Origin: Alteriqipengyuania lutimaris
GTDB lineage: Bacteria > Pseudomonadota > Alphaproteobacteria > Sphingomonadales > Sphingomonadaceae
Length of the DNA stretch: 64,000 nucleotides
Assembly: GCF_003363135.1 (NCBI RefSeq)
Contig: NZ_QRBB01000001.1
Span: 1,710,501-1,774,500 of the forward strand
Direction: 5' to 3'
Shown here piece after piece: positions 7,958 to 58,245 of the stretch; within the stretch, counting starts at the first letter, position 1; the number at the start of each line of letters is the position of its first letter. A program made the translations under genes and the position numbers. The notes below the pieces were generated by a model. That model was not told the origin of the DNA. It searched no databases and saw nothing but the letters and a program-made list of their open reading frames with translations.

Positions 7958-8275
7958 ATGCCCAAGCTTACGGTGGTGGACCGCAGCGGAACCGAACGCA
8001 TGATCGAGGTCGGCGACGGCCTGACCGTGATGGAAGCGATCCGCGACAATGGCTTCGACGAACTGCTGGCGCTGTGCGGCGGGTGCTGTTCGTGCGCGAC
8101 GTGCCACGTCCATGTCGATCCCGCCTTCGCCGACAAGCTGCCCGCGATCAGCGAGGACGAAGACGACCTGCTCGAAAGCAGCGACCACCGCGTCGAAACC
8201 TCGCGCCTGTCGTGCCAGATCGAGTTCACCTCCGATCTCGACGGGCTGAAGGTGCAGATCGCGCCCGAGGACTGA
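7958..8275 (+). CDS. 2Fe-2S ferredoxin
   Basis: Small electron carrier of the adrenodoxin/putidaredoxin type. It is 105 residues long with cluster ligands C40, C46, C49 and C86 in the C-x5-C-x2-C...C pattern; C43 and C44 are additional. [10 protein letters not shown] is the acidic partner-binding helix typical of vertebrate-type ferredoxins. The ATG at 7958 follows AAAAAGG. It is divergent from the glycosylase gene, and no P450 or reductase is adjacent, so the partner is unknown. Confidence 0.92.
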
Positions 8276-29752: not shown

Positions 29753-31441
29753 ATGATGACGGGACGGTACAAGCTAACGCGCACCGCGATGCCGGTGCTG
29801 GTGCTCGCGCTTGCAGGGTTCGCTGCCCCCGCGACGGCGCAATCGGGCGATACCGTGTCGCGGGCGGTGGTGCAGCCGCTGCCGCCCGCCGCGTCCGACG
29901 ATCTCAACGAAGCGCTGATGCGCCTCGCGCGCGACCGGCGCGATGTCGACGCGCTGATTGCGGCCGGGCTCGCCTCGCTCCAGCTCGGCGATTCCGACGC
30001 GGCGATTGGCTTCTTCGGGCGCGCCAGGGAATTGTCCCCCCAGAACCCGCGTATTTCGGAAGGCATGGCCGCCGCCTATGTGCGCGGCGGACGGCCGGTC
30101 GAAGCGCTGAAGCTGTTCGAGGAGGCCGAACAGGCCGGGATCAGCAGCGGCTCGCTGTGGGCCGATCGCGGCCTCGCCTATGATCTGGTCGGGCAGAACA
30201 GCGCGGCGCAAACGGCCTATCGCCGTGCGCTTTCGCTCGAGGACGACGCCGAGGTGCGGCAGCGACTGGCCTTGAGTCATGCCATCGCGGGCGAGCGCCA
30301 GCCGTTCGAGGACACGCTCAAGCCCATGCTCGATGCGCGCGATTTTGCCGCCTACCGTACCCGGGCCTTCGGTCTGGCGGTGCTGGGCGACGCGGACGAG
30401 GCGATCGAGATCGCCCGCGCCGTCATGCCGCGCGACCTCGCCGGGCGGCTGGAGCCTTACCTGCGCTTCATGCCGCGGCTGACCAAGTCGCAGCAGGCCG
30501 CCGCCGCCAATCTCGGCATCTACCCTTCCGCCGCCCGCATCGGTCGCGACGATCCGCGTATCGCAAGCGCGGCGGGCGGCGTGGCCGGACCGGGCGCTCC
30601 CGATACTGGCTTGGAACCGCGTGGAGCACCGCTCGGCGAGGGACCGGCCATACAGGTCGCCCGGCGACCGGTACGCGATCTGAGCGACCCGCTGCGGCGC
30701 ACGATCCTGCGTGAGCCCGTTGCCCGCGCAGCGATCGCGATTCCGCCCCCCACACCCACACCCACACCCACACCCACACCCACATCCACACCCGCTCCGG
30801 CACCGACGCCCGCACCGACGCAAGCGCCTGCCGGTGCGACCGAGGTTCGGATGGCACAAAGCGACGCGGCATCCGCGCCCATCGGGCCGACCGCCTCCGA
30901 TCCCGTGCCGCTGGCCGCGGCGAATCTCGGCCAGCCCGAATCGCGGGGCGCGGACCCGGTTACTTTCGATCTCGCCGATTCGCGTCCCGCCCAAGCTGCG
31001 CCGACGCCAGCTCCGGCAGCATCGCCGCCGTCCGGCGCATCGGCTCCGCTCGACCTTGCCGAGGCCTTTGCCGATTTCGCCGAGCCGACCGCGGTCGCGG
31101 TCGCCGGAGAGGACGTGGTCGACATCAGCGCGATCGAGCCCGTGCGCGAAGAGGCTGCGCCCCCGCCGGCGCCCGCGCCGCGGCGTATCTGGCTCCAGAT
31201 CGGCGTCGGGCAGAATCGCGGACTGCTGCGCAATGACTGGCGGCTCAAATACCGCAAGTTCGACGTGCTGAAGGACAAGGGCCCCTTCGTGACCCCCATG
31301 GGGCAGACCAACCGGCTGCTCGCCGGGCCGTTCGACAATCAGGCGCAGGCGCGCGAAGCGCTGAACGCGCTCGCGGCGGAGGATGTCGATTCCTTCATCT
31401 GGACCAGCGCCGAAGGCCAGCAGATCGACGAATTGCGCTGA
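29753..31441 (+). CDS. TPR and SPOR domain exported protein
   Basis: 562 residues. The signal peptide (hydrophobic PVLVLALAGFAAPATAQ) is followed by TPR-like helices (about 40-240: DALIAAGLASLQLGD, EGMAAAYVRGGRPVEALKLF). A low-complexity Pro/Thr/Ala region (about 320-470) includes a PT dipeptide repeat encoded by a CCCACA hexamer. A C-terminal SPOR-like domain (about 480-555, RIWLQIGVGQNRGLLRNDW) follows. SPOR domains bind denuded septal glycan, so a role at the division site is inferred, in keeping with its place after ftsZ. Start is ATG 29753 or 29756. Confidence 0.8.
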   Translation: MMTGRYKLTRTAMPVLVLALAGFAAPATAQSGDTVSRAVVQPLPPAASDDLNEALMRLARDRRDVDALIAAGLASLQLGDSDAAIGFFGRARELSPQNPRISEGMAAAYVRGGRPVEALKLFEEAEQAGISSGSLWADRGLAYDLVGQNSAAQTAYRRALSLEDDAEVRQRLALSHAIAGERQPFEDTLKPMLDARDFAAYRTRAFGLAVLGDADEAIEIARAVMPRDLAGRLEPYLRFMPRLTKSQQAAAANLGIYPSAARIGRDDPRIASAAGGVAGPGAPDTGLEPRGAPLGEGPAIQVARRPVRDLSDPLRRTILREPVARAAIAIPPPTPTPTPTPTPTSTPAPAPTPAPTQAPAGATEVRMAQSDAASAPIGPTASDPVPLAAANLGQPESRGADPVTFDLADSRPAQAAPTPAPAASPPSGASAPLDLAEAFADFAEPTAVAVAGEDVVDISAIEPVREEAAPPPAPAPRRIWLQIGVGQNRGLLRNDWRLKYRKFDVLKDKGPFVTPMGQTNRLLAGPFDNQAQAREALNALAAEDVDSFIWTSAEGQQIDELR

Positions 31442-45524: not shown

Positions 45525-46286
45525 CTATTTCTTGACCCGCCACTCGCGCGCGTAGGTCGATACCTCGTTGTATTTGCGCCGCGCGGCCTCGTTCTGCTCG
45601 GCGCGCTCGTCCTCGCTCGAGGCGCGGGCCTGCCCTTCCTTGATCAGCGCATCGCGGCGGATCGGGACGATCTGCGCGATCGGCGTGCCTGCGGGCAGCA
45701 CATGCTCGCCCAGCGGGCCGGTCCACAGGAAGGGCATGTTCACCGTCGTGTCGAAACGATCGCAGTCGACGAGGCCGGAAAAGGTCGTGAAGGGCAGGTC
45801 GGGGCGGTTGAGCGGTTGCATGAACAGCGCCGAATAGCCTTCGGGCACCTTGATCCGCCATGGATTGACGAACTTCAGCGGCATCGCCGCCTCGAAAGGC
45901 GCGTTCGGCGCACCGATCTGGCCTGGATGATGCTGGTCGATCGGGGCAAAGGCGACGTTTTCGGCCCACCCGAGCCCGATCGACACGCGATCCTCGGGCA
46001 CGTGCAGCAGGACATCGTAGGGCAGGGGGATAACGAAGCCGAGCGCGAAGGCATCGGTGACGGGCAGGCACGCCTTCACCGTCAGGCCCGGCATCCCGTT
46101 GGCATCGGGCATGCCCATGTCCCTGTCGAGCCGCCGGAACCACTCGGGCGCGAAGCGGATCGCGCGCTCCGGCGCAGGAATGCGGCCGAAGAGCGCGGGA
46201 TCGCACAGGAATTCGATCTGCGGTGCATGGCCGCTCTCGCCAGCTTGCTCCGGCCCGATGTCGAAGCGCACCGTATCATCGGGCAT
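45525..46286 (-). CDS. DUF6065-like protein at the end of the peptide-export locus
   Basis: 253 residues, soluble, no signal peptide. Marks such as PLKFVNPWRIKVPEGYSALFMQPLNR and LPAGTPIAQIVPIRR suggest the DUF6065 family (from memory, not searched). The C-terminus is charged (AEQNEAARRKYNEV). It lies 41 bp after the exporter gene in the same orientation. It may act on or with the secreted peptides, but no catalytic motif is evident. Confidence 0.6.
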   Translation of the reverse strand: MPDDTVRFDIGPEQAGESGHAPQIEFLCDPALFGRIPAPERAIRFAPEWFRRLDRDMGMPDANGMPGLTVKACLPVTDAFALGFVIPLPYDVLLHVPEDRVSIGLGWAENVAFAPIDQHHPGQIGAPNAPFEAAMPLKFVNPWRIKVPEGYSALFMQPLNRPDLPFTTFSGLVDCDRFDTTVNMPFLWTGPLGEHVLPAGTPIAQIVPIRRDALIKEGQARASSEDERAEQNEAARRKYNEVSTYAREWRVKK

Positions 46287-46326: not shown

Positions 46327-48450
46327 TTAACCGGCCGCGCCGGGTTCGTGTACCCTCAGCTGTCCTGCTTCCATCACGAGGATGCGGTCGGCTGCCTCGA
46401 TCGTTTCCTTGCGGTGGGCGATGATGACGCGGGTGATCCCCATCGCCCCGATCGCTGCGTTCACGGCGACCTCGTGCTTCGTATCGAGATGCGCGGTCCC
46501 TTCGTCCATGAACAGGATCCTGGGCGCACGGTAGAGCGCTCTTGCCAGCAGGACGCGCTGTTTCTGGCCGCCCGACAGGGTCGATCCCATATCGCCGATC
46601 AGCGATTCGTACTGCATCGGCATGCGCATCACGTCTTCGTGGATCGACGCGGCGGCAGCGGCATTGACGACTTTCTGCAGGTCCACCTCCTCGTCGAACA
46701 AGGCGATATTGTCCGCCAGCGATCCGGCAAAGAGGCTGTCTTCCTGCAGCACCGCCGCGATCTGCTGATGGAAGCTCTTGTAGCCGAAGCGGTGCAGCGG
46801 CATCCCGTCGACCAGCACCTCGCCGCCTTCCGGTTCGACGAGGCCCAGCATGATCTTGAGCAAGGTCGACTTGCCGCCGCCCGATGGCCCGGTGATGGCG
46901 ACATGCTCGCCCGCCTCGATCACCATGTTGACGCCCTGCAGCACCAGCGGATCGCTCGGCGAATAGCGGTAGTGAATATCGCGCAGTTCGATCTTGCCGG
47001 TCAGCTCCGTATGCGTTTTCGCCGCGACGGTGAAACTGCGATCCTCGTCCGACAGCGCGATATCGGACAGGCGCTCCAGATGCAGGCCCAGCATCTTGAA
47101 CTGGATCGCCTGGTCGATCAGCGCTGCCGATTTGCTGATGAACTGGTTCTTGTAGGCGATATAGGCGAACACCATCCCGACGCTGAAGCCGGCCCCGTCG
47201 ATGACGAACCCGACCGCCAGCCAGATGGTCAGCACGTTCTCGATCCCGAAGATCAGCAGGTTGGCGGTCGATTGCCAGATGCCTATCCGCGCCAGCCGGA
47301 CGTCCGCATTGATCGAATCCGTCAACCGCGTCTGCCACAGCGCATGGCGCAGGGTTTCGCGGCTGAACAGGCGCAGGGTCACCATCCCCCGCAGCGTCTC
47401 GATCAGGGTGGTCTGTTCCTTGCCGCCGGTGATGATGCTGGCTTCCTGCGCCTCGCGCTGAAACGAGAAGCTCACGAACCGCGCGACGCCGTAGAGGACG
47501 AAGGCGATGACGGCGATGAAGGCGAGCAGCGTGCTGTAGTAGAACATCACCGCCAGCGTGAAGATCGCCATCACCCCGTCGACCAGCGCCGCGACCGCGC
47601 CCTGCGTCAGCAGGTTCTGGATCGGCACGACCGACTGGAAGCGCGACAGGATATCGCCCGTGTGGCGCTTCTCGAAATACTCGATCGGCAGCCGGAAAAG
47701 GCGCCGCGCGATATTCGTCGCCAGGGCATAGCCGACGCTGGTGCCTGCATTGAGCAGCACGAAGGACCGCAGCAGGCTGGCGATCACGTTGATCAGGGTG
47801 AACAGGCCGAAGCCCAGCGCAAGGACGGTCAGCAGGTCGTTGTCGAGCGCGGGCAGCGCGCTGTCGATCGCGACCTGCATGTAATAGGGCGAGGCGAGCG
47901 CGAAGGCCTGCAGCACCAGGCTGAGCAGCAGGATCTGCGCGAGAGCGCGCTTGAGCCCGGTCATGCTCTGCCACAGCTGCGACATGCGCAGCCGCTCGCG
48001 CTGGGAGCCGCGCTCGAAATCGTTGCTCGGCCTCAGTTCGAGGGCGACCCCGGTGAAATGGTCCGACACCTCCTGCAGCGGCATCCAGGTGGAGCGGCCA
48101 TCGGGGTTATGGATCAGCGCCTTGCCGCCCTTGACCGCCTCGATCACCACGTAGTGGTTCATGTCCCAGTGGAGCACGGCGGGCATGTGCAGGTTGGCGA
48201 GTTCTTCCAGCGGCAGCTTGACCGCACGCGGCGTCAGTCCGATCTGGTCGGCAAGATTGATCAGCGCGCGTAGGGGCGCACCGCGCATCGATGGTGAATA
48301 GCGGCGCCGCATCGTGCCGAGGTCGGTGTCGAGCCCGTGGTAGTTCGCGACCATGGTGAGGCTGGCGAGCCCGCATTCCGCGACTTCCGTCTGGCGGACG
48401 AGCCGCACGCGGCTGCGGGTGGTGAAGCCGAGATCCAAAGCGGTGGCCAT
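46327..48450 (-). CDS. Peptidase-containing (C39) ABC exporter
   Basis: Type I bacteriocin exporter, 707 residues. The N-terminal C39 leader peptidase has Q20, catalytic C26 (VAECGLASL), H99 (WDMNHYVV) and D117 (HNPDG), so it should be active. About six transmembrane helices follow (160-440). The ATPase has Walker A GPSGGGKST, signature LSGGQKQR and Walker B ILFMDEGTAHLD. It cleaves after double-Gly leaders and exports the core. It is encoded one base after the HlyD gene. The four precursors upstream are its likely substrates. Confidence 0.95.
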   Translation of the reverse strand: MATALDLGFTTRSRVRLVRQTEVAECGLASLTMVANYHGLDTDLGTMRRRYSPSMRGAPLRALINLADQIGLTPRAVKLPLEELANLHMPAVLHWDMNHYVVIEAVKGGKALIHNPDGRSTWMPLQEVSDHFTGVALELRPSNDFERGSQRERLRMSQLWQSMTGLKRALAQILLLSLVLQAFALASPYYMQVAIDSALPALDNDLLTVLALGFGLFTLINVIASLLRSFVLLNAGTSVGYALATNIARRLFRLPIEYFEKRHTGDILSRFQSVVPIQNLLTQGAVAALVDGVMAIFTLAVMFYYSTLLAFIAVIAFVLYGVARFVSFSFQREAQEASIITGGKEQTTLIETLRGMVTLRLFSRETLRHALWQTRLTDSINADVRLARIGIWQSTANLLIFGIENVLTIWLAVGFVIDGAGFSVGMVFAYIAYKNQFISKSAALIDQAIQFKMLGLHLERLSDIALSDEDRSFTVAAKTHTELTGKIELRDIHYRYSPSDPLVLQGVNMVIEAGEHVAITGPSGGGKSTLLKIMLGLVEPEGGEVLVDGMPLHRFGYKSFHQQIAAVLQEDSLFAGSLADNIALFDEEVDLQKVVNAAAAASIHEDVMRMPMQYESLIGDMGSTLSGGQKQRVLLARALYRAPRILFMDEGTAHLDTKHEVAVNAAIGAMGITRVIIAHRKETIEAADRILVMEAGQLRVHEPGAAG

Positions 48451-48451
48451 C

Positions 48452-49684
48452 TTATCGCCTCTGTACTGCGAACAGGGGCTCGAAAAGCCACTCGATCAGG
48501 GACTGTTCTTCGGTGATGATGCGGGCGGTCAGCGTCATTCCGGCGACGAGCGGCTCCTCGCGCCCGAAGGCGGTCACTTCGGTTGCATCCAGCGTGACGA
48601 CGACAGGATAGACCGATACGACCGCGCCGTTGGGCATCGTCTGGCTGACCGCACTGCCGGCGACCGTCGTCACCGTTCCCTCGACCGTGCCGAAGCGCTG
48701 GTAGGGGAAGGCATCGATCGCGAGGCGGACATTCTGGCCCGTTTTCACGAAACCGATGGCCTGGCTCGGCACGAGAAGCTCCGCCCGCAGTTTCGCGCCG
48801 TCCGGGATGACCGCCATGACCTGTGTCTGCGGGCCGACGCGCTGGCCGCTGCGCATGGTCAGTGCCGTGACCCTACCGGCGACGGGTGCGCTCAGCGCGT
48901 AAGAGCGTGCCCCTTCGTTGCCGGCCGCCTGCTGCGCCACCTGCGCACGCGATGCGGCGATGTTCGCCGCCTGGCTCTGCGCCTGGGCGGAGATGTTGGC
49001 GGAGGTGGTGGACAATTCGGCGAGCGTCGCCCGGCGCGCGGTGAGCGACTGGCGAAGCTGCGACAATTGCTGCTGCCGCGCCACGAGCGTGTCTTCCCGT
49101 GCACGAAGATCGGCCTGGCTGATGAAGCCGTCCTCCGCGACGCCTTGCGCTCTTTCGAGATCGGCTGCGGCCGAACCGACGAGGTTTTCCTGCAAGGCGA
49201 TCTGCGATTGCAGCTGCGATATCTCGGAGCGCAGCCCTGCGGCCTGGACCGCGATCTGGCTGCGCTGGGCGGATGCGGAGCGCTGCGCCGCCGTGAGCTG
49301 GGCGATCAGGCTCGCATCCTGCTGCGCGATCGCCTGCTGGGTCAGCGCGGCCGCCGATTCGCCGGTGGGACTGTCTTCCTCGGCGTTGATCGCGACGAGT
49401 GTGGCGCCTTCGTCGACCTGCTCGCCATCGGTGACGAAGATCTCGGTAATCGTGCCCGCACGCGTCGGGATGATGGCGGCCACGCCCTTGTCGGGCACGA
49501 TCACCCCGGTAACCGTTTCGACCCGCGAATAGGTGGCCAGCGACAGGAAGACGATCGCGGCGAGCAGCCCGCCGAATATCAAATAGCCGATCAGCTGCCA
49601 CGGCAGAGGGACCGCAATCGATACCTCGCCCGACAGGCGATCTTTCTTCTGGGTCAGGACTTCCGAACGAAATAGCGCCGACAT
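48452..49684 (-). CDS. HlyD-family periplasmic adaptor of the peptide exporter
   Basis: 410-residue membrane fusion protein. One N-terminal transmembrane helix (about 30-50, LIGYLIFGGLLAAIVFLSL), a biotinyl-lipoyl-like half (VIVPDKGVAAIIPTRAG...EGATLVAI), a long coiled-coil hairpin rich in Gln and Ala (about 110-250), then the beta-barrel domain. It links the ABC exporter to an outer-membrane channel, which is not encoded here. Ala/Gln-rich coiled coils are typical of CvaA/HlyD homologues. Confidence 0.92.
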   Translation of the reverse strand: MSALFRSEVLTQKKDRLSGEVSIAVPLPWQLIGYLIFGGLLAAIVFLSLATYSRVETVTGVIVPDKGVAAIIPTRAGTITEIFVTDGEQVDEGATLVAINAEEDSPTGESAAALTQQAIAQQDASLIAQLTAAQRSASAQRSQIAVQAAGLRSEISQLQSQIALQENLVGSAAADLERAQGVAEDGFISQADLRAREDTLVARQQQLSQLRQSLTARRATLAELSTTSANISAQAQSQAANIAASRAQVAQQAAGNEGARSYALSAPVAGRVTALTMRSGQRVGPQTQVMAVIPDGAKLRAELLVPSQAIGFVKTGQNVRLAIDAFPYQRFGTVEGTVTTVAGSAVSQTMPNGAVVSVYPVVVTLDATEVTAFGREEPLVAGMTLTARIITEEQSLIEWLFEPLFAVQRR

Positions 49685-49844
49685 GCGACCGGTCCGCTCC
49701 CCTCACAAATCAACGGTCCTAGCTTGTTGGTATCCCCTAGGCGCTCGCTCGGGTAAACCGTAATAGTGCAAGTGAGTTATAGGGGGTTGGCGGCCAACCG
49801 TGGAAACGCGCCTCGATCCCGAAGCTCCTATCCGGGGGATTCTT
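49685..49844 (-). promoter_or_regulatory. Upstream region of the exporter genes
   Basis: A 160-bp non-coding gap. The plus strand carries GTAATAGTGC (49760-49769), nine of ten bases matching one arm of the palindrome upstream of the Trp-rich precursor gene. The minus-strand text GCACTATTAC lies about 75 bp before the HlyD start. A promoter is likely here, but no convincing -35/-10 pair was seen. Confidence 0.35.
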
Positions 49845-50015
49845 TCAACGCCTCAGATAGCCCAATCCGATCGTGACACCCACGATGCACGCAGCGCAGA
49901 GGAGTGCGAGAACCAGCAGCGTCGGCTTCTCGCCGGCTCGCAGGGCATAGAAAAGCGCGACAGCCGAAAGAATTCCGCTAATGAGCAAGATTATTTGCCC
50001 TTTTTGTTCAATCAT
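49845..50015 (-). CDS. Small two-helix membrane protein, candidate immunity protein
   Basis: 56 residues from ATG 50015, which begins MIEQKGQ. Two hydrophobic helices (about 8-24 and 31-52) are joined by a short RAGEKP turn, with a C-terminal YLRR. Size, topology and position between a bacteriocin-like precursor and the exporter genes match immunity proteins of class II bacteriocin loci. No sequence family is recognised. An upstream in-frame ATG would add 18 basic residues that overlap the hairpin and is less likely. Confidence 0.6.
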   Translation of the reverse strand: MIEQKGQIILLISGILSAVALFYALRAGEKPTLLVLALLCAACIVGVTIGLGYLRR

Positions 50016-50040
50016 ATCACGCCCCCGATAAAGTCTTAGG

Positions 50041-50073
50041 GCTAGTGCCCCGCTTTTGTCGCGGGGCACTAGC
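50041..50073 (-). terminator. Hairpin after the Gly-rich precursor gene
   Basis: GCTAGTGCCCCGC (50041-50053) pairs perfectly with GCGGGGCACTAGC (50061-50073) around a 7-nt loop. There is no strong U tract on either side. It could be a partial terminator or an mRNA-processing barrier that keeps precursor expression above that of downstream genes. Confidence 0.6.
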
Positions 50074-50081
50074 GAAGAGGG

Positions 50082-50345
50082 TCAGCCGCCCGACGCCACA
50101 AACCAACCACCTGCGGTGAGGAAGCCGCCCACGGCGACCAAGCTGGCGCCGCCGGTGGGAACCGCAAGGCCAATCCCGACTGCAATGGTACCGATCGCCG
50201 CGAGCGTAACGCCCCTTGTAACGTTGCTGGCGCCCCCGCCATCGGGATTGTTACGGACGCCGCCGCCGACGAGATCGACTTCGTTGAAGTTGAGATCCTG
50301 GATCGGGCTTTGGGTACCGAGCTTGTTCTGATCGGGATTGGTCAT
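50082..50345 (-). CDS. Precursor peptide A: Gly-rich bacteriocin-like
   Basis: 87 residues. The leader ends DLNFNEVDLVGGG. Counting from the third Gly as -1, the C39 pattern fits (L -12, E -8, V -7, V -4, G -2, G -1), so cleavage after G29 is predicted. The 58-residue core begins VRNNPDGGG and then has two hydrophobic Gly/Ala-rich segments (VTLAAIGTIAVGIGLAV; ASLVAVGGFLTAGGW), each with GxxxG-like spacing typical of membrane-active class II bacteriocins. No Cys. The ribosome site AGGAATAG precedes ATG 50345. Confidence 0.75.
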   Translation of the reverse strand: MTNPDQNKLGTQSPIQDLNFNEVDLVGGGVRNNPDGGGASNVTRGVTLAAIGTIAVGIGLAVPTGGASLVAVGGFLTAGGWFVASGG

Positions 50346-50489
50346 TGTGTCTATTCCTGTTTTTGAATGCCGACGCGGGTTGTCGGCGAAATTTACCCGC
50401 GTTCCGCAGCACGATTGGGCGCGGCGGAAATTGCTGCTCGGCGGACGTGCGCCCTCGCGCCGAGAAAATCCTGTTTTCGGTTGTGCCGA

Positions 50490-50663
50490 TCAATCGGCGC
50501 TGAGGCTGTCGAAGGCATCCTCGGCGGCGCTTGCCAGCACGCCGGCTGCGAGTGCCTGGATTTCGTTCGCGCCGAGTGCCTTGGCCGCCTTGTAACCGGC
50601 CTCGAACCCGTCTTGGCCTGCGCCGCTCACCGACGAGATTTCTGCTTGGTTCAGCATTTTCAT
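50490..50663 (-). CDS. Precursor peptide B: Ala-rich helical
   Basis: 57 residues. The leader MKMLNQAEISSVSGA matches the consensus exactly (L -12, E -8, I -7, V -4, G -2, A -1; a Gly-Ala site). The 42-residue core starts GQDGFEAGYKAAKALG and is Ala-rich, acidic and predicted helical, with no Cys or Trp. Start ATG 50663 follows GGGGACG. It lies 102 bp after precursor C and 145 bp before precursor A. Confidence 0.7.
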   Translation of the reverse strand: MKMLNQAEISSVSGAGQDGFEAGYKAAKALGANEIQALAAGVLASAAEDAFDSLSAD

Positions 50664-50716
50664 AGTTCGTCCCCTGTCTTGTCTTGCATCCCCGCACTGC
50701 GAGGATCGATGGTCCT

Positions 50717-50755
50717 ACCCGGGCCGCGCGGCGGCAGCGCCGCGTCGGCCCGGGT
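50717..50755 (-). terminator. Strong hairpin after the PDPFPF-repeat gene
   Basis: On the minus strand ACCCGGGCCG-A-CGCGGCG pairs with CGCCGCG-CGGCCCGGGT around CTGC, 17 base pairs with one bulged A. It begins 10 bp past the stop of precursor C. There is no U tract, so an attenuator or 3'-end stabiliser is as likely as a terminator. Confidence 0.6.
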
Positions 50756-50764
50756 GCCCGGCGG

Positions 50765-50971
50765 TTACAGCTCCCAGGGCTGCGGGAAGGGGGTGGGGAA
50801 GGGGTCCGGGAACGGGAAAGGATCGGGGAACGGGAAGGGATCCGGGAAAGGGAAGGGGTCCGGGAACGGGAACGGATCGGGCGGGAAGCAGCCACCCGGT
50901 TGATCGGCGATTACGCCGCCCACGACCAGCTGCAACTCGGCGGTCGTGATCTCTACGATGCGATTTGTCAT
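50765..50971 (-). CDS. Precursor peptide C: PDPFPF-repeat peptide
   Basis: 68 residues. The leader MTNRIVEITTAELQLVVGG fits the C39 consensus (I -12, E -8, L -7, V -4, GG). The 49-residue core starts VIADQPGGCFP and then has four PDPFPF units, a fifth PDPFPT, and ends PFPQPWEL. It contains one Cys, right after a second GG, and no Lys or Arg. Codons differ between units at third positions (Asp GAT or GAC; Pro CCC, CCG or CCT; Phe almost always TTC), which suggests the protein sequence is what is kept. GAGGAGAG precedes ATG 50971. Confidence 0.8.
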   Translation of the reverse strand: MTNRIVEITTAELQLVVGGVIADQPGGCFPPDPFPFPDPFPFPDPFPFPDPFPFPDPFPTPFPQPWEL

Positions 50972-51226
50972 CTTGGCTCTCCTCATCGAACATGCGCCAG
51001 CATCGGGCTGACGTGACGAGGATCGCAAATCGCGAAGTTCCCACAATAAACCGGATGAGCTAGGATGAATTTGCTACCGCGACAGGGCGACCTTGTGCCG
51101 CGCTCCGTGGCATTCTGCGGCATCTATGGGCATGTATCCGGTTTGGCCCAAAAATAGTGGGCTTGTGCTATTGGAACCGGCACCCTCTTGCAGGCATGAT
51201 GGGCGTATTCGCAGGAGTATCGCAGG
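50972..51226. promoter_or_regulatory. Divergent control region between precursor C and the response regulator
   Basis: A 255-bp non-coding stretch from which the precursor genes (minus) and the LuxR-type gene (plus) diverge. It contains a small GCCCA/TGGGC hairpin (about 51146-51162) and AT-richer tracts near 51040-51075. No clear promoter hexamers or shared operator were seen. Confidence 0.4.
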
Positions 51227-51877
51227 TTGAGAATTCAACGGGACAATCTGGCAGCCCAGTCCTCCCGCACGATCGTGGCTGACGACCACCCGATTTTCAG
51301 GGAAGGCATCTCTTCGATCCTCAGGGATATCGATCCCTCGATCGAGGTCGATCAGGCAGGCTCGTTCGAAGAATTGCTGGAGGTCGCTTCGAACGGGGCC
51401 AGTCCGGCCCTTTTCCTGCTCGATCTGAACTTTCCCGGGATGGATGTCGATGCGGCGGTTCCGCTGCTGCGGCTGAAATTTCCACTGTCGTCGATCATCA
51501 TCATATCGATGGCGGATGACCGCCGCTCCACCGATCATATCATGGATGTCGGTGTCGACGGCTTCATCAGCAAGGCCGCGACCCAGCAGCAGATCCGCGA
51601 AGGGATTGCTGCGGTCATAGGCGGTGAATTCGTGAATGTGAGCGAGGCCGGCGGGCTTTCGATGACCAGCTCGGTGTCGCATTTCTCCGGCCTGACGCCG
51701 CGGCAGCTGGACGTGCTGCGCGGGATCGCGAAAGGTCGGTCGAACAAGCAGATTGCAGCCGACCTGGGCATTTCGCCCTTCACGGTCCGCATCCATGTTT
51801 CCGCGCTGCTGCGGGAGCTGAAGGTCGACAGTCGGACGGCAGCTGCCGCATTGGCGACGCGATACGGCGTCCATTGA
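51227..51877 (+). CDS. LuxR/NarL-type response regulator
   Basis: 216 residues from TTG 51227, with AGGAG 9 nt upstream. The receiver has the acidic pair D19-D20 (VADDHP), phospho-acceptor D66 (FLLDLNFPG) and Lys in ISKAA. The C-terminal LuxR HTH is LTPRQLDVLRGIAKGRSNKQIAADLGISPFTVRIHVSALL. It is encoded divergently from precursor C and adjacent to precursor D and the hybrid kinase, so it is the likely regulator of the peptide genes. Confidence 0.9.
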   Translation: MRIQRDNLAAQSSRTIVADDHPIFREGISSILRDIDPSIEVDQAGSFEELLEVASNGASPALFLLDLNFPGMDVDAAVPLLRLKFPLSSIIIISMADDRRSTDHIMDVGVDGFISKAATQQQIREGIAAVIGGEFVNVSEAGGLSMTSSVSHFSGLTPRQLDVLRGIAKGRSNKQIAADLGISPFTVRIHVSALLRELKVDSRTAAAALATRYGVH

Positions 51878-51879
51878 AA

Positions 51880-51901
51880 AAGGGCCGCTTTCGCGGCCCT
51901 T
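51880..51901. terminator. Bidirectional terminator hairpin
   Basis: AAGGGCCGC (51880-51888) pairs with GCGGCCCTT (51893-51901), tetraloop TTTC, 9 bp. A runs on the left and TTCTCGT on the right serve the convergent response-regulator and precursor D genes. Confidence 0.75.
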
Positions 51902-51907
51902 CTCGTG

Positions 51908-52078
51908 TTACGAAGCGTCGGGATCTTCGGTCGGAATTTCCGGCATGAGATCGGTCCAGCGCCCGGTGGTGATCCAGTCCCAGATTCCGTAATGCACGTC
52001 CTCAGCCATGGGCGCGCCGCCAGAGACGTTTTCAATTTCCTGTCCATCAAGAAGCTGGATTCCGGTAAAGTCGTTCAA
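51908..52078 (-). CDS. Precursor peptide D: Trp-rich acidic
   Basis: 56 residues from TTG 52078, chosen because AGGAG lies 7 nt upstream; an upstream ATG at 52153 would put the ribosome site and a palindrome inside the gene. The leader ends LDGQEIENVSGG (L -12, E -8, I -7, V -4, GG). The 35-residue core APMAEDVHYGIWDWITTGRW... has three Trp, is acidic at the end (PTEDPDAS), and lacks Cys. It is unlike the other three cores. Confidence 0.7.
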   Translation of the reverse strand: MNDFTGIQLLDGQEIENVSGGAPMAEDVHYGIWDWITTGRWTDLMPEIPTEDPDAS

Positions 52079-52102
52079 GATTAATCTCCTGTCCAAGGTG
52101 TG

Positions 52103-52149: not shown

Positions 52150-52173
52150 GCACTAATACAGATGTACTAGTGC
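52150..52173. promoter_or_regulatory. 24-bp imperfect palindrome upstream of precursor D
   Basis: GCACTAATAC (52150-52159), spacer AGAT, GTACTAGTGC (52164-52173); nine of ten positions are complementary. It sits between the hybrid-kinase stop and precursor D. One arm recurs upstream of the HlyD gene. A LuxR-type binding site is inferred. A weak terminator for the kinase gene is the alternative, but no U tract follows. Confidence 0.45.
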
Positions 52174-52183
52174 CGGAGAGAAA

Positions 52184-54388
52184 TTATCGGCGAACCGACA
52201 TGAGGGCGGATCTCAACTCGGCAGCTCTCAAGGGCTTGGACAAAATCAATCCTGCGTGTTCGGGGAGAGTGACGCGAATCTTCTCGGGATGATGTCCGGA
52301 AATCACGATGAGGATGGAGCCGGCGTCGTGTAGATGCGAAACTAGGCCACTCCATTTCGCAAGCGTCCGTCCGTCACTGAGGTCATAGTCGCTCAGGAGA
52401 ATATCGCAGTTCGGAATGCTCTCAGGAAGAGTGTCATAGGCTTCGACCTGGCAGCCCCATCGTTCCAGCAACCGCTGAGTCGAGATGCGCGTCTCGACGT
52501 CGTCCTCAATCAATACGATACGCACGCCCGACAGTGGCATGGGACGGATTGATGGGGGGGCAGTCCCTGTTTCACGAAGATCGGTAATGGCAAGACCTTC
52601 AATCGTCGCAGCAGTGCCGCGCCCTTCTTTCGACCTGAGTACGAAGCGCAGACCGAGCATCTCGGAAATGCGATTTACAATCGCCAGACCCAGACCCTTG
52701 TTATCGGAATGCCGTTCGCCTCTGCTCGCGATGCGATAGAACTCCTTCCGCACATGCAGCAGCTCATCTGCGGAAATTCCGCGACCATTATCGATCACTG
52801 CCAGGGTCACCTTGCCTGCATGACGTCGACACCCGACCAGTACCTTCTTTCCCGGCGCATATTTGATGGCGTTGGAAACGAGGTTTTGCAGTATGGTACC
52901 GATCAGCGCACGGTCGGTATGAATATGCAGATCCGAAGGGACGAACCGCAATTCGACGCTGGCCTGTTCGGCAGTCAGAGCATTCTGCCTGTCGAGATCG
53001 GCGAGCAGATCGTTCACTGCGACCGGCGCATTGCGAACCTTCAAGGTGCCGCTCTCGATTGCGGCAATGTCGAGCAGGGCGCGAAACATCCGGCTGGCGT
53101 TTTCGACCGACCACGAGATCTTCGAAACCATCAGCTGTTGATCGCGCGAAAGGTCCGTGTCCGCGAGGCGTTCGGCAAGCAGACCGATAGCGTGAATGGG
53201 CTGTCTCAGATCGTGGCTTGCTTGCGCGAGGAAACGCGATTTGGATTCCGCTGCGCTTCGGTATGTGCGCACCGCGTCCGCACCCCTCGTCCAGAGCCGC
53301 GTCAAAGCAAGCAGGAGCAGCAAGAAGATTGCGTGGGACGTCTGAAGGAAGATCAGGTGCGGTTCGAGAAACAGTGGGCTCACCGCAATGACCAGCATGG
53401 CCGCCAGAGCGACGACACGACCGTAGGGTCGGCGGATAAACAGCCAGATCAACGCCGCCATGAAGGCCAGAGCGAAGGACGGGAGCCAACCGATTGAGAC
53501 CGGCGGTCCGTCGCGCAGGGTCTGCGCTGCGAGGATCGTTGCAGCCGCTCGCGACGTATAGGGATCGAGCGGGGTCACGAGCGTGTCGCGGCTGGGTACA
53601 TCCACGAAACTGATGAGGACCCGTTTGCCTTCGAGCAGTTTCGGGTCGAAGTCTCCCGCCAGCAGGTCTCCGGCCGGGATCGCTGGAACGGTCGCGGGGT
53701 CGTATCGCAGATCGACATTGAAAGCGTTCAGCGCCACACCGTGGGAGCCTTCGGCCAACAGGGTGGCGAGTGAAGGGAAGAGCCCGTCTTCCATCCTTAC
53801 AGCAACGGGCGCATAGACCGGCGCTCCGAAAGTATGTTCCCTCAGAGCCATGACGGAAGGTGTGACCCGTCCGGCAATTTCCGGTTCGAGCCTGGAAGAC
53901 GTTTCGGCTAGTTTTCCCACAGCCGGTGGCGCAGAAGATCGCGAGAGCTGACCGACCTCCTCGGGCGTCAGATCGATCCGCCATACCGGGCGAAGGGGCA
54001 GTTCGGCCACGGCCTCGGCCAGCTGCTCGGCTCCCTCATCGGTATCTTCAGCGAAGTACTGGCTATCGACCAGGATCTGCTTGGGCTGGGCGTTTCCGAT
54101 AATCGCGAGCAAATCCGCCAAGTCGCTTTTGGTCCACGAGTTCGTGGGCTGCTGCTGCACCGTGTCAGTGTCGATCGCGACGATGACGGCGTCGCCGCGA
54201 TAGGCCTTCGGATTGGCCGCGGCGGTGACCGAGCGTTGGAGCCAGTCATAGGGTTCGAACGGTTCGACCGCGACGATGAAGATCGCCAGGAATGCGAAGA
54301 TCAGAAGTTCGCGCCGCGATGGCCTCCTCGAAAAGGAATTTCCGGCAACGATTCTTTGCATCGAGTTTCGTCGCTCCGCATTGGCCAT
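52184..54388 (-). CDS. CHASE2-domain hybrid histidine kinase
   Basis: 734 residues from ATG 54388 (TTG 54397 or ATG 54361 possible). One N-terminal transmembrane helix (about 28-42) is followed by a CHASE2 sensor (45-295, extracytoplasmic), three helices (300-365), HisKA with H392 (SHDLRQP), HATPase_c with VSNAIKY, DNGRGI and GLGLAIV, and a receiver with D667 (LLSDYDLSDG) and Lys in LSKPLR. It should sense a periplasmic or outside cue and signal to the LuxR-type regulator nearby. Confidence 0.9.
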   Translation of the reverse strand: MANAERRNSMQRIVAGNSFSRRPSRRELLIFAFLAIFIVAVEPFEPYDWLQRSVTAAANPKAYRGDAVIVAIDTDTVQQQPTNSWTKSDLADLLAIIGNAQPKQILVDSQYFAEDTDEGAEQLAEAVAELPLRPVWRIDLTPEEVGQLSRSSAPPAVGKLAETSSRLEPEIAGRVTPSVMALREHTFGAPVYAPVAVRMEDGLFPSLATLLAEGSHGVALNAFNVDLRYDPATVPAIPAGDLLAGDFDPKLLEGKRVLISFVDVPSRDTLVTPLDPYTSRAAATILAAQTLRDGPPVSIGWLPSFALAFMAALIWLFIRRPYGRVVALAAMLVIAVSPLFLEPHLIFLQTSHAIFLLLLLALTRLWTRGADAVRTYRSAAESKSRFLAQASHDLRQPIHAIGLLAERLADTDLSRDQQLMVSKISWSVENASRMFRALLDIAAIESGTLKVRNAPVAVNDLLADLDRQNALTAEQASVELRFVPSDLHIHTDRALIGTILQNLVSNAIKYAPGKKVLVGCRRHAGKVTLAVIDNGRGISADELLHVRKEFYRIASRGERHSDNKGLGLAIVNRISEMLGLRFVLRSKEGRGTAATIEGLAITDLRETGTAPPSIRPMPLSGVRIVLIEDDVETRISTQRLLERWGCQVEAYDTLPESIPNCDILLSDYDLSDGRTLAKWSGLVSHLHDAGSILIVISGHHPEKIRVTLPEHAGLILSKPLRAAELRSALMSVRR

Positions 54389-54576
54389 CAATGACAAGGA
54401 AGCCGGGGCTTACGATGACCGGTCCTTTTGTCCTAACCAATTCGGCGGCCATTGGTTCATCGCAGCTGCGGATTCGCGCCGACCTCCGCGCGCAACTTGC
54501 GGTTCGTCGTCTTGCGAAGACGCACCAGTGCCATCCCGGCCGGCAGCGGTTGCGCGTGAAGCGCGCGCGCCTTGCG

Positions 54577-57426: not shown

Positions 57427-58245
57427 ATGATGATGAACGATCACGACAGGCGCAAGGATGAAGAGCCCGAGGATGGGCGCATTCCCGACCATCCCGAAGG
57501 TGAGGATTTTGACGTGGAGGTCGAGGTGGATATCGACGACGACGATATGCCCGGCGGCAAACGCACCTCGGCCAGCTTCGATACCGACGCGATCTTCGGG
57601 CCCGAGGGCGTCTTCGGCCCCGGTGGCCCCTTCGGCCCCAAGGGCCCGTTCGGGCGTGAGGGACCCTTCGGACCCGGTGGCCCCTTCGGCGAGACTGGCC
57701 CCTTCGGCGGCGGTCGGCGCGGCAGCCGGGCGCGGTGGAAGATGGCGGGCGTGCATGATGCCGGGGAGCATCATCGCCCCCGCCGCAAGCGCATGTTCGG
57801 CCCGGGCGAGCTGCGGCTCGTCCTGCTCGCGCTGATCGCGGACGCGCCCAAGCACGGATACGAGTTGATCAAGGAGATCGAGGACATGACGGGCGGCGAA
57901 TATTCGCCCAGTCCGGGCGTGATCTATCCGACGCTCTCCCTGCTCGAGGACGAGGGCCGGATCGCTCCGGTCGAGGGCGACGAGAGCCGCAAGGCGTTTC
58001 GCGTCACCCCATCCGGGATGGAGGAACTGACCGAGCGCGCCAGCGAGGTCGACCGTCTTATGGAACGGCTGGGGCGCCAGGCGAAGCGCGCGAAGCCAGC
58101 GGGTTCGCCGGACCTGCTCCGCGCGCTCGGCAACCTCGCCACGGTCATCACCAATCGCGCGGCCAACGGCCAGTTCAGCAGCGAGAGCAAGGACAAGGTC
58201 GTCGACCTGATCGACGAGCTGGCGCGCAAGATCGAACGGCTCTGA
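57427..58245 (+). CDS. PadR-family regulator with collagen-like N-terminus
   Basis: 272 residues. The C-terminal PadR winged helix (about 120-200, LRLVLLALIADAPKHGYELIKEIEDM, SPSPGVIYPTLSLLEDEG) is followed by a dimerisation helix. The first 120 residues are unusual: an acidic stretch (EVEVDIDDDD) and eight or nine FGPxGP-type units, then basic RRGSRARWK. Start codons 57427, 57430 and 57433 are consecutive ATGs; GGAG at 57421 best suits 57430 or 57433. It probably represses its own promoter. Confidence 0.88.
   Translation: MMMNDHDRRKDEEPEDGRIPDHPEGEDFDVEVEVDIDDDDMPGGKRTSASFDTDAIFGPEGVFGPGGPFGPKGPFGREGPFGPGGPFGETGPFGGGRRGSRARWKMAGVHDAGEHHRPRRKRMFGPGELRLVLLALIADAPKHGYELIKEIEDMTGGEYSPSPGVIYPTLSLLEDEGRIAPVEGDESRKAFRVTPSGMEELTERASEVDRLMERLGRQAKRAKPAGSPDLLRALGNLATVITNRAANGQFSSESKDKVVDLIDELARKIERL

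Follow-up and report, generated by a model that had tools for sequence, protein, structure and literature searches.

Within a window of 64,000 nucleotides from the alphaproteobacterium Alteriqipengyuania lutimaris (contig NZ_QRBB01000001.1; "the window" means this whole analyzed stretch), we analyzed a gene for a secreted-type peptide built of Phe-Pro repeats, together with its neighborhood. The open reading frame described in an earlier note was confirmed exactly at positions 50765-50971 of the minus strand, running from ATG to TAA with AGGAG 5' of the ATG, and encodes 68 amino acids. The genes and features around it are the following.

45525-46286, minus strand: DUF6065-like gene directly downstream of the exporter gene (Pfam match below the cut-off).
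46327-48450, minus strand: C39 peptidase-ABC exporter, with Cys26, His99, Asp117 and the Walker motifs in place.
48452-49684, minus strand: HlyD-type membrane fusion protein (profile match).
49760-49783, plus strand: weaker copy of the operator-like motif, upstream of the HlyD-exporter operon.
49845-50069, minus strand: small hydrophobic protein, start uncertain (open reading frame list).
50041-50073, no strand: 13-bp perfect inverted repeat between the peptide genes and the exporter side, a possible terminator or attenuator.
50082-50345, minus strand: GG-leader peptide with a Gly-rich hydrophobic core (leader regular expression).
50490-50663, minus strand: GA-leader peptide, Ala-rich, with matches in three syntenic loci.
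50717-50755, no strand: 10-bp G+C-rich inverted repeat directly downstream of the Phe-Pro peptide gene.
50765-50971, minus strand: Phe-Pro repeat precursor, 68 aa (leader 50915-50971, mature part 50768-50914, stop codon 50765-50767).
50792-50881, minus strand: array of four PDPFPF units and one PDPFPT (sequence, TRF).
50882-50914, minus strand: mature N-terminal head VIADQPGGCFP, in the place of the family motif P[DN]G.GCT.P.
51151-51174, plus strand: operator-like motif TAGT-N5-TGTGCTA (at 51155-51170), between the Phe-Pro peptide gene and the response regulator gene.
51227-51877, plus strand: NarL/LuxR-type response regulator (profile match).
51908-52078, minus strand: GG-leader Trp-rich peptide (..GIWDW..), TTG start with AGGAG upstream (by eye).
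52150-52173, plus strand: weaker, near-palindromic motif copy upstream of the Trp-rich peptide gene.
52184-54397, minus strand: CHASE2 hybrid histidine kinase, C-terminal half NahK/ErcS-like (profile match).

The leader of the window Phe-Pro peptide (MTNRIVEITTAELQLVVGG) matches the double-glycine pattern. Its earlier reading as a C39-type leader is supported by the exporter with Cys/His/Asp motifs 2.3 kb away, which is the only C39 peptidase match in the whole genome; the leader models PF02979 (NHLP) and PF07862 (Nif11) gave no match to the peptide. The core begins VIADQPGGCFPPDPFPF. The predicted mature peptide has 49 residues, a calculated unmodified mass of 5556 Da and a calculated pI of 4.05, and consists of 20 Pro, 11 Phe, 6 Asp, one Cys and one Trp among others, with no Lys or Arg; the core contains one Thr and no Ser. 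This composition confirms both the lack of basic residues and the single Cys given in the earlier note, and the absence of Lys and Arg supports its statement that the peptide is unlike cationic proline-rich antimicrobials. The latter are animal peptides with Arg/Lys-rich cores; they share a high Pro content and aromatic residues with the window peptide, whereas the window core has no basic residue and belongs to a bacterial peptide with a GG leader.

The mature peptide reads VIADQPGGC-FP, four units of PDPFPF, one PDPFPT, and then PFPQPWEL. The earlier count of five near-identical units thus holds if PDPFPT is included; only four units are full, and an extra FP lies between the Cys and the array. 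Over the 40 residues that start from the Phe after the Cys, Pro occupies every second position at a frequency of 0.90. The corresponding 18-bp tandem array was detected by TRF. Among the four full units, which are alike in protein and differ only in third bases, the pairwise differences at codon positions 1, 2 and 3 are 0, 0 and 15, and the four variable columns out of 18 are all third positions (combinatorial chance 0.005, with four columns being little data). This pattern fits selection on the peptide, as had been proposed from the synonymous codons of the units, with modest data behind it; the alternative outcome named in advance, changes random with respect to the reading frame, was checked, and all of the differences fall in third positions.

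The AlphaFold2 model of the peptide is an extended chain (mean pLDDT 67, pTM 0.24), and a polyproline-II rod is the shape predicted for the array at this low confidence. In a polyproline-II helix with three residues per turn, a hexad repeat of this kind would place Asp along one face and Phe along the remaining two. The Cys after the second GG, previously suggested as an alternative cut, is more plausibly the head residue common to a broad family (..G.GC[T].P, GGC[IF]P), and nothing in the analysis points to metal binding or receptor mimicry, which had been raised as well. A lipoprotein cut before the Cys was rejected, the -3 residue being not hydrophobic and the GG leader being no Sec signal.

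Four GG/GA-leader-like small open reading frames were detected by the leader regular expression in the 64-kb window, and all of them fall within 50082-52096, next to the exporter; the number in 20 third-order Markov copies of this sequence was 0-3 (mean 0.85). Read by eye, the frames of at least 110 aa between exporter and kinase, in the window and in six syntenic loci, comprised only HlyD, the regulator and overlapping frames, with one additional 111-aa frame in L172. The earlier note treated the Phe-Pro peptide by itself; its sequence context points to a locus with several peptide cargoes, of which it is one, and with a dedicated two-component pair. The GA-leader peptide at 50490-50663 has a weak microcin V profile match over residues 1-46. 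The small protein at 49845-50069, for which no profile model scored above the cut-off, might at a guess be an immunity protein. The DUF6065-like gene was rejected as a partner of the locus, since it was found at none of the 40 exporter loci compared.

The exporter was matched at E ≤ 1e-90 in 45 of 397 genomes of the family, this genome included; 15 exporters besides its own are 67-89% identical, and one is 58% identical. We compared 40 of the 45 other places, including all of the closest 16. Within the genus, none of the nine other genomes had a match to the window Phe-Pro peptide at E ≤ 0.0001 (a match at E 2.3e-4 was rejected as chance, lying inside an 810-aa frame), and of the ten genomes only G003 carries another full-length C39-type match, which is 32% identical. 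The pair of regulator and kinase was found at seven of the 17 loci formed by this locus and the closest 16: the window locus, L169, L170, L171, L172, L175 and L176. The six syntenic genomes represent four genera, with exporters 76-89% identical to that of the window. At five of the six, a peptide of the form GG|V..P[DN]G.GCTEP followed by a variable tail, hereafter the Cys-head peptide, is encoded in the operon that diverges from the regulator; counted from the regulator, its gene comes first in L169, L172, L175 and L176 but second in L170. At L171, where the pair is present, the regular expression found no Cys-head peptide, and L179 has one on the other side of the exporter without the pair.

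It should be noted that the peptides of exporter loci were detected by regular expression, so that misses are possible and the absences in the following counts are soft. The Trp-rich peptide occurs at 7/7 loci with the pair and 0/9 without (p 9e-5), and the Cys-head peptide, counting that of the window, at 6/7 and 1/9 (p 0.009), the contig-cut L174 being left out of both; with L174 added (0/10 without the pair for the Trp-rich peptide), p becomes 5e-5 and 0.004, respectively. The Trp-rich peptide is a candidate signal. In L169, two sister peptides have microcin V matches below the cut-off, and one of them also matches a Gly-zipper model above it. More distant exporter loci contain a different cargo type: GA-leader peptides with Lys/Ser/Gly/Cys-rich cores at L201:16883-17053, L206:16475-16642 and L207:280-483.

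The motif TAGT-N5-TGTGCTA is common to five of six aligned intergenic regions between peptide and regulator genes. Among 258 loci, the exact motif occurs at nine distinct places, all at loci with the kinase/regulator pair; five loci defined the motif, and L171, L172, the second L169 site and Paracoccus L250 are independent of that definition. Eight of nine alphaproteobacterial loci with a related pair carry the exact form, one of them on a plasmid of Paracoccus, which belongs to another order; the Phyllobacterium locus has only weaker forms. In the 3.29-Mb genome itself, the exact motif occurs once, at this locus, and the reversed control pattern does not occur. A matrix built without the window gave three matches above 10 bits (at 51151, 49760 and 52150), all in the locus, in a scan that for this genome covered the 64-kb window; in other loci, not all matches above 10 bits are where they would be expected, three of six in L170 being elsewhere. 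The promoter element is therefore common to the transcription units of the locus, and its exact copy is confined, in this genome, to the region between peptide and regulator.

The Phe-Pro peptide gene occupies the position of the Cys-head peptide genes at the syntenic loci: it belongs to the operon that diverges from the regulator and has the same promoter motif. Its leader and the one of the L169 Cys-head peptide agree at 11 of 19 positions, compared with 3-9 of 15-19 for 18 other leaders, some of them shorter. As in the Cys-head family, a double-glycine leader directly precedes the head and the mature part contains a single Cys, as counted for the window peptide; the head keeps G-G-C and the following Pro residues (VIADQPGGCFPP), and the [DN]G and the Thr are lost. 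Against a profile of seven other Cys-head peptides, with its own sequence left out, the window Phe-Pro peptide scored 21.9 bits over residues 1-28, compared to 32.0 bits for P0066 and 19.2 and 14.0 bits for the next two. The other window peptide at 50082-50345 scored 22.3 bits, i.e., as high as the Phe-Pro peptide, and the case for descent therefore rests mainly on leader and place. Taken at the level of sequence, the gene looks like the Cys-head gene of the locus with an eroded head and a tail replaced by the Phe-Pro array.

The Cys-head family extends well beyond these genomes. Nine peptides (seven Cys-head peptides of exporter loci, P0066 and that of the window) were searched against a protein database, which yielded 131 proteins at E ≤ 1, with 120 listed. 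Among the matches listed, the loose Cys-head pattern is present in 119 of 119 newly listed proteins, whose sources include Erythrobacter, Altererythrobacter, Paracoccus, Phyllobacterium and Myxococcota, as well as plasmids of Bacteroidota; the strict form P[NDH]G[EKRQ][GTS]CT is present in 107 of all proteins collected. The gene order of the window locus (exporter, HlyD, regulator, hybrid kinase) recurs on Paracoccus versutus pTAV3 and on a plasmid of Phyllobacterium zundukense, with the kinase match restricted to the C-terminal half and the head peptide beyond the kinase rather than between HlyD and regulator. On plasmids of Phocaeicola salanitronis and Bacteroides uniformis, the head lies near a kinase, HlyD and a C39 exporter; head and kinase are separated by a leader peptide that contains Trp. 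A regulator is annotated near the Cys-head peptides on the Paracoccus, Phyllobacterium and Phocaeicola plasmids. Two Cys-head peptides lie close together on pTAV3 (L250:7643-7786 and 8001-8144), one of the GGCIKP and one of the PDGKGCTEP form, and this side-by-side occurrence ties the two forms together.

Scans of 39 family members found no dedicated Pfam or NCBIfam model for the Cys head; the models that did match, all weakly (best E 7e-4), were those for bacteriocins, lantibiotics, pheromones and low-complexity sequence. P0017 has a precomputed annotation as Pfam PF27893, which is absent from our own Pfam scan of this protein. In seven of the 397 family genomes, the best match to the head profile had E < 1e-9, in all cases at an exporter locus; most of these peptides helped build the profile, so that what this search adds is the lack of matches at that level away from an exporter. 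A wider draw of 181 genomes of the class and 190 of the phylum recovered only the window peptide and that of G049, both of which are in the profile, suggesting that the head family is rare among the sampled genomes. Weak matches in G227, G319 and G377 were rejected as chance, the frames read there showing no leader-type context. Among solved structures, the head profile had no match at E ≤ 1, and exact-letter literature searches for PNGEGCT and PDGKGCT heads found no paper.

The Phe-Pro core has a distribution of its own. Searched alone against 5.8 billion proteins, the window peptide has eight relatives at E ≤ 1, the best (9e-7) being 43% identical over 41% of the query. None of the relatives found there has the same core, so that any conservation of function would be conjectural for the window peptide. 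A profile of nine Phe-Pro peptides retrieved 95 database proteins. A script found a leader-like motif in 65 of these 95, a core with at least five aromatic-Pro steps in 56 of the 65, and [GSN]C[IFTV] within 20 residues of the cut in 22 of the 56; these shares are biased because the profile contained both leader and core, and some of the 56, such as P0092 and P0095, are not leader peptides. The search for such repeats behind double-Gly leaders elsewhere, which the earlier note had suggested, thus showed that Phe-Pro cores recur behind several leader types: short leaders, NHLP-type (P0050, P0057, P0062, P0063) and Nif11-type (P0032, P0074), the type being taken from Pfam labels for P0050, P0057, P0062, P0032 and P0074. 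P0031 and P0037, with a Phe-Pro core and no head, have leaders nearly identical to those of P0181 and P0199, with a head and a Phe-Pro tail, which connects the two kinds of peptide. Phe-Pro-rich tails of at least three steps occur in 14 of the 119 Cys-head proteins.

Within the family, a second Phe-Pro peptide was found at the orthologous locus of another genus (L170:6818-7006) and a third at L007, in a third genus. The latter, the G095 peptide (L119:9649-9822, which is L007:1465-1638), adjoins another GG-leader peptide between frames of 1104 and 2774 aa; the 20 kb analyzed at this locus contain no C39 match, only two ABC ATPase matches, and the genome has one C39 elsewhere. Most of the remaining genomic matches were discarded. 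The window peptide matched 19 of the 397 genomes at E ≤ 1e-4, and a reading of both strands of these loci (L007-L025) left L007 as the sole case of a leader peptide with a Phe-Pro core. A scan of genomes for GGC[IF]PxPFP gave 93 loci with two GG-leader peptides, L036 and L071; L071 has no C39 match within 8 kb, and L077, flagged by the regular expression, was rejected as a long frame. The Phe-Pro profile matched 58 places in 51 of the 397 genomes at E ≤ 0.01. The 30 places that were read include three true peptides (those of the window, G095 and G049), and one of the other 28, in G194, coincides with the Trp-rich peptide of L175. L213 and L232, also flagged by the regular expression, were rejected as long frames without a Phe-Pro core. 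At L036:3510-4989 of Parapedobacter tibetensis, there are four peptides with NHLP-looking leaders, one with the core VIDGGCFPLPFPTFPIFRLL, and a LanM-like frame (by eye) nearby. Among the titles and abstracts listed, no literature on GG peptides of the PFPFP type was found, and the sole exact-letter match to PFPFPFP, a review, concerns another subject. The 2004 screen of GG peptides is reportedly the work of Dirix and others.

We give about an even chance to the explanation that the window Phe-Pro peptide remains unmodified and serves as an effector, probably bacteriocin-like, of a regulated and self-contained locus for peptide export. The C39-ABC/HlyD exporter next door would cut the precursor after Gly19, and the exported product would be an unmodified, acidic peptide of 49 residues, one of four cargo peptides of the locus. 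The response regulator would bind operators at the peptide operon, the exporter operon and the Trp-rich peptide gene, and the levels of peptides and exporter would increase in step, like those of class II bacteriocin loci under pheromone control. The Phe-Pro peptide would descend from the Cys-head peptide of the locus (V..P[DN]G.GCTEP and a variable tail); its head would have eroded to VIADQPGGCFP, and an alternating Pro-x array, probably forming an extended rod that resists proteases, would have taken the place of the tail. In such a bacteriocin-like effector, the tail would set the target of its putative activity. By analogy, the putative antibacterial role is the likeliest one, because the sister cargoes resemble Gly-zipper class II microcins and the locus resembles blp loci.

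Class II microcins are defined (PMC9746304) as Gram-negative peptides exported by C39-ABC/HlyD systems. They share with the window locus the GG/GA leader, the dedicated PCAT exporter with a membrane fusion protein and several small cargoes, and the L169 sisters add Gly-zipper cores and sub-threshold microcin V matches. However, the window core is an acidic Phe-Pro array that matches no microcin model at E ≤ 1, and the locus has no recognized immunity gene. The pneumococcal blp system (PMC5295010) likewise combines an exporter, GG peptides, a histidine kinase, a response regulator and a system-confined promoter element, whereas the window locus has a CHASE2 hybrid kinase, for which peptide sensing is putative, and a NarL-type regulator. 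For the head family, class IIa bacteriocins, with their YGNGVXC box (PMC6671954), offer an analogy only: a conserved short N-terminal box, N-G-x-x-C spacing, and then a variable tail. The window peptide differs in having no N-G, no YGNGV box, one Cys in place of the pair, an acidic character and a Gram-negative host. Bacteroidetocins have four Cys in a mature peptide of 42-48 aa (PMC6671954), a feature absent from the window peptide with its one Cys.

A role at the cell surface or in a biofilm, in which an exported structural rod coats cells or joins the matrix, perhaps disulfide-linked via the Cys, is unlikely in our judgment and is the first of the alternatives. An extended polymer would be in keeping with the acidity of the peptide, its aromatic content and its regularly alternating residues, and the occurrence of Phe-Pro cores behind unrelated leaders fits a physical role. 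There is also a precedent in EbfG1-4 of Synechococcus elongatus, small GG-leader proteins that are exported with the C39 transporter protein PteB and needed for biofilm formation (PMC4997328), although the host is distant and the word "proline" is absent from the main text of that source. Conversely, some of the other cargoes in such loci are hydrophobic, microcin-like Gly-zipper peptides, we noticed no gene for an adhesin or matrix component at the locus, and the distribution of the exporter is accessory and patchy (15 at ≥67% identity besides its own in 397 family genomes).

Somewhat less probable again is that the Phe-Pro peptide, or its head, is a pheromone sensed by the CHASE2 kinase. Its gene is divergent from that of the regulator, with the strongest motif copy between them, and Cys-head peptides lie beside a kinase on the Paracoccus, Phyllobacterium, Phocaeicola and Bacteroides plasmids, too. 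However, the Trp-rich peptide tracks the pair better (7/7 and 0/9) than the Cys-head peptide does (6/7 and 1/9), and the tail changed completely while kinase and regulator stayed. We consider it quite improbable that the gene encodes a RiPP precursor, a peptide to be modified by an enzyme whose gene lies elsewhere. Some Phe-Pro cores do follow leaders of the NHLP and Nif11 types, which belong to modifying systems, and the L036 core lies beside the LanM-like frame; nevertheless, no modifying enzyme was seen at the window locus or the six syntenic loci, the DUF6065-like gene was found at none of the 40 exporter loci, and the core has one Cys, one Thr and no Ser. A spurious low-complexity frame deserves hardly any credence: most genome matches to Phe-Pro sequence are chance frames, with two true peptides in 93 loci of the head-pattern scan, whereas this gene has a leader, a ribosome site, synteny, the motif and the third-position pattern.

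A tentative and broader proposal, to which we assign roughly a one-in-three standing, is that of a cross-phylum class of exported peptides with a near-invariant N-terminal Cys head (GP[ND]G.GCT, its N-G-x-x-C spacing resembling that of the pediocin box) and a free, exchangeable C-terminal module. The head would engage a common partner or chemistry, and the window module would have been swapped for a Phe-Pro rod, with a dedicated two-component system and operator. If this two-part class is real, the Phe-Pro rod would represent a novel structural type among the bacterial peptides that serve antagonism or signaling. If the effector explanation is correct, Erythrobacter-type Alphaproteobacteria would offer a testable system in which a single operator-like sequence goes with one exporter, one kinase and four peptides; the same head also occurs in Myxococcota and on gut Bacteroidota plasmids. 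The Trp-rich peptide could be tested as a pheromone, the Cys-head peptides for killing versus signaling, and the acidic Phe-Pro rod for its behavior outside the cell.

Two other repeats were observed in the window. A predicted 272-aa protein (57427-58245, plus strand) has an N-terminal stretch of Phe-Gly-Pro repeats (GPFGPKGPFGREGPFG) coded by an 18-bp tandem array at 57594-57690, ~7 kb from the Phe-Pro peptide, and a hexanucleotide tandem repeat, CCCACA, is present in 7.5 copies at 30749-30793.
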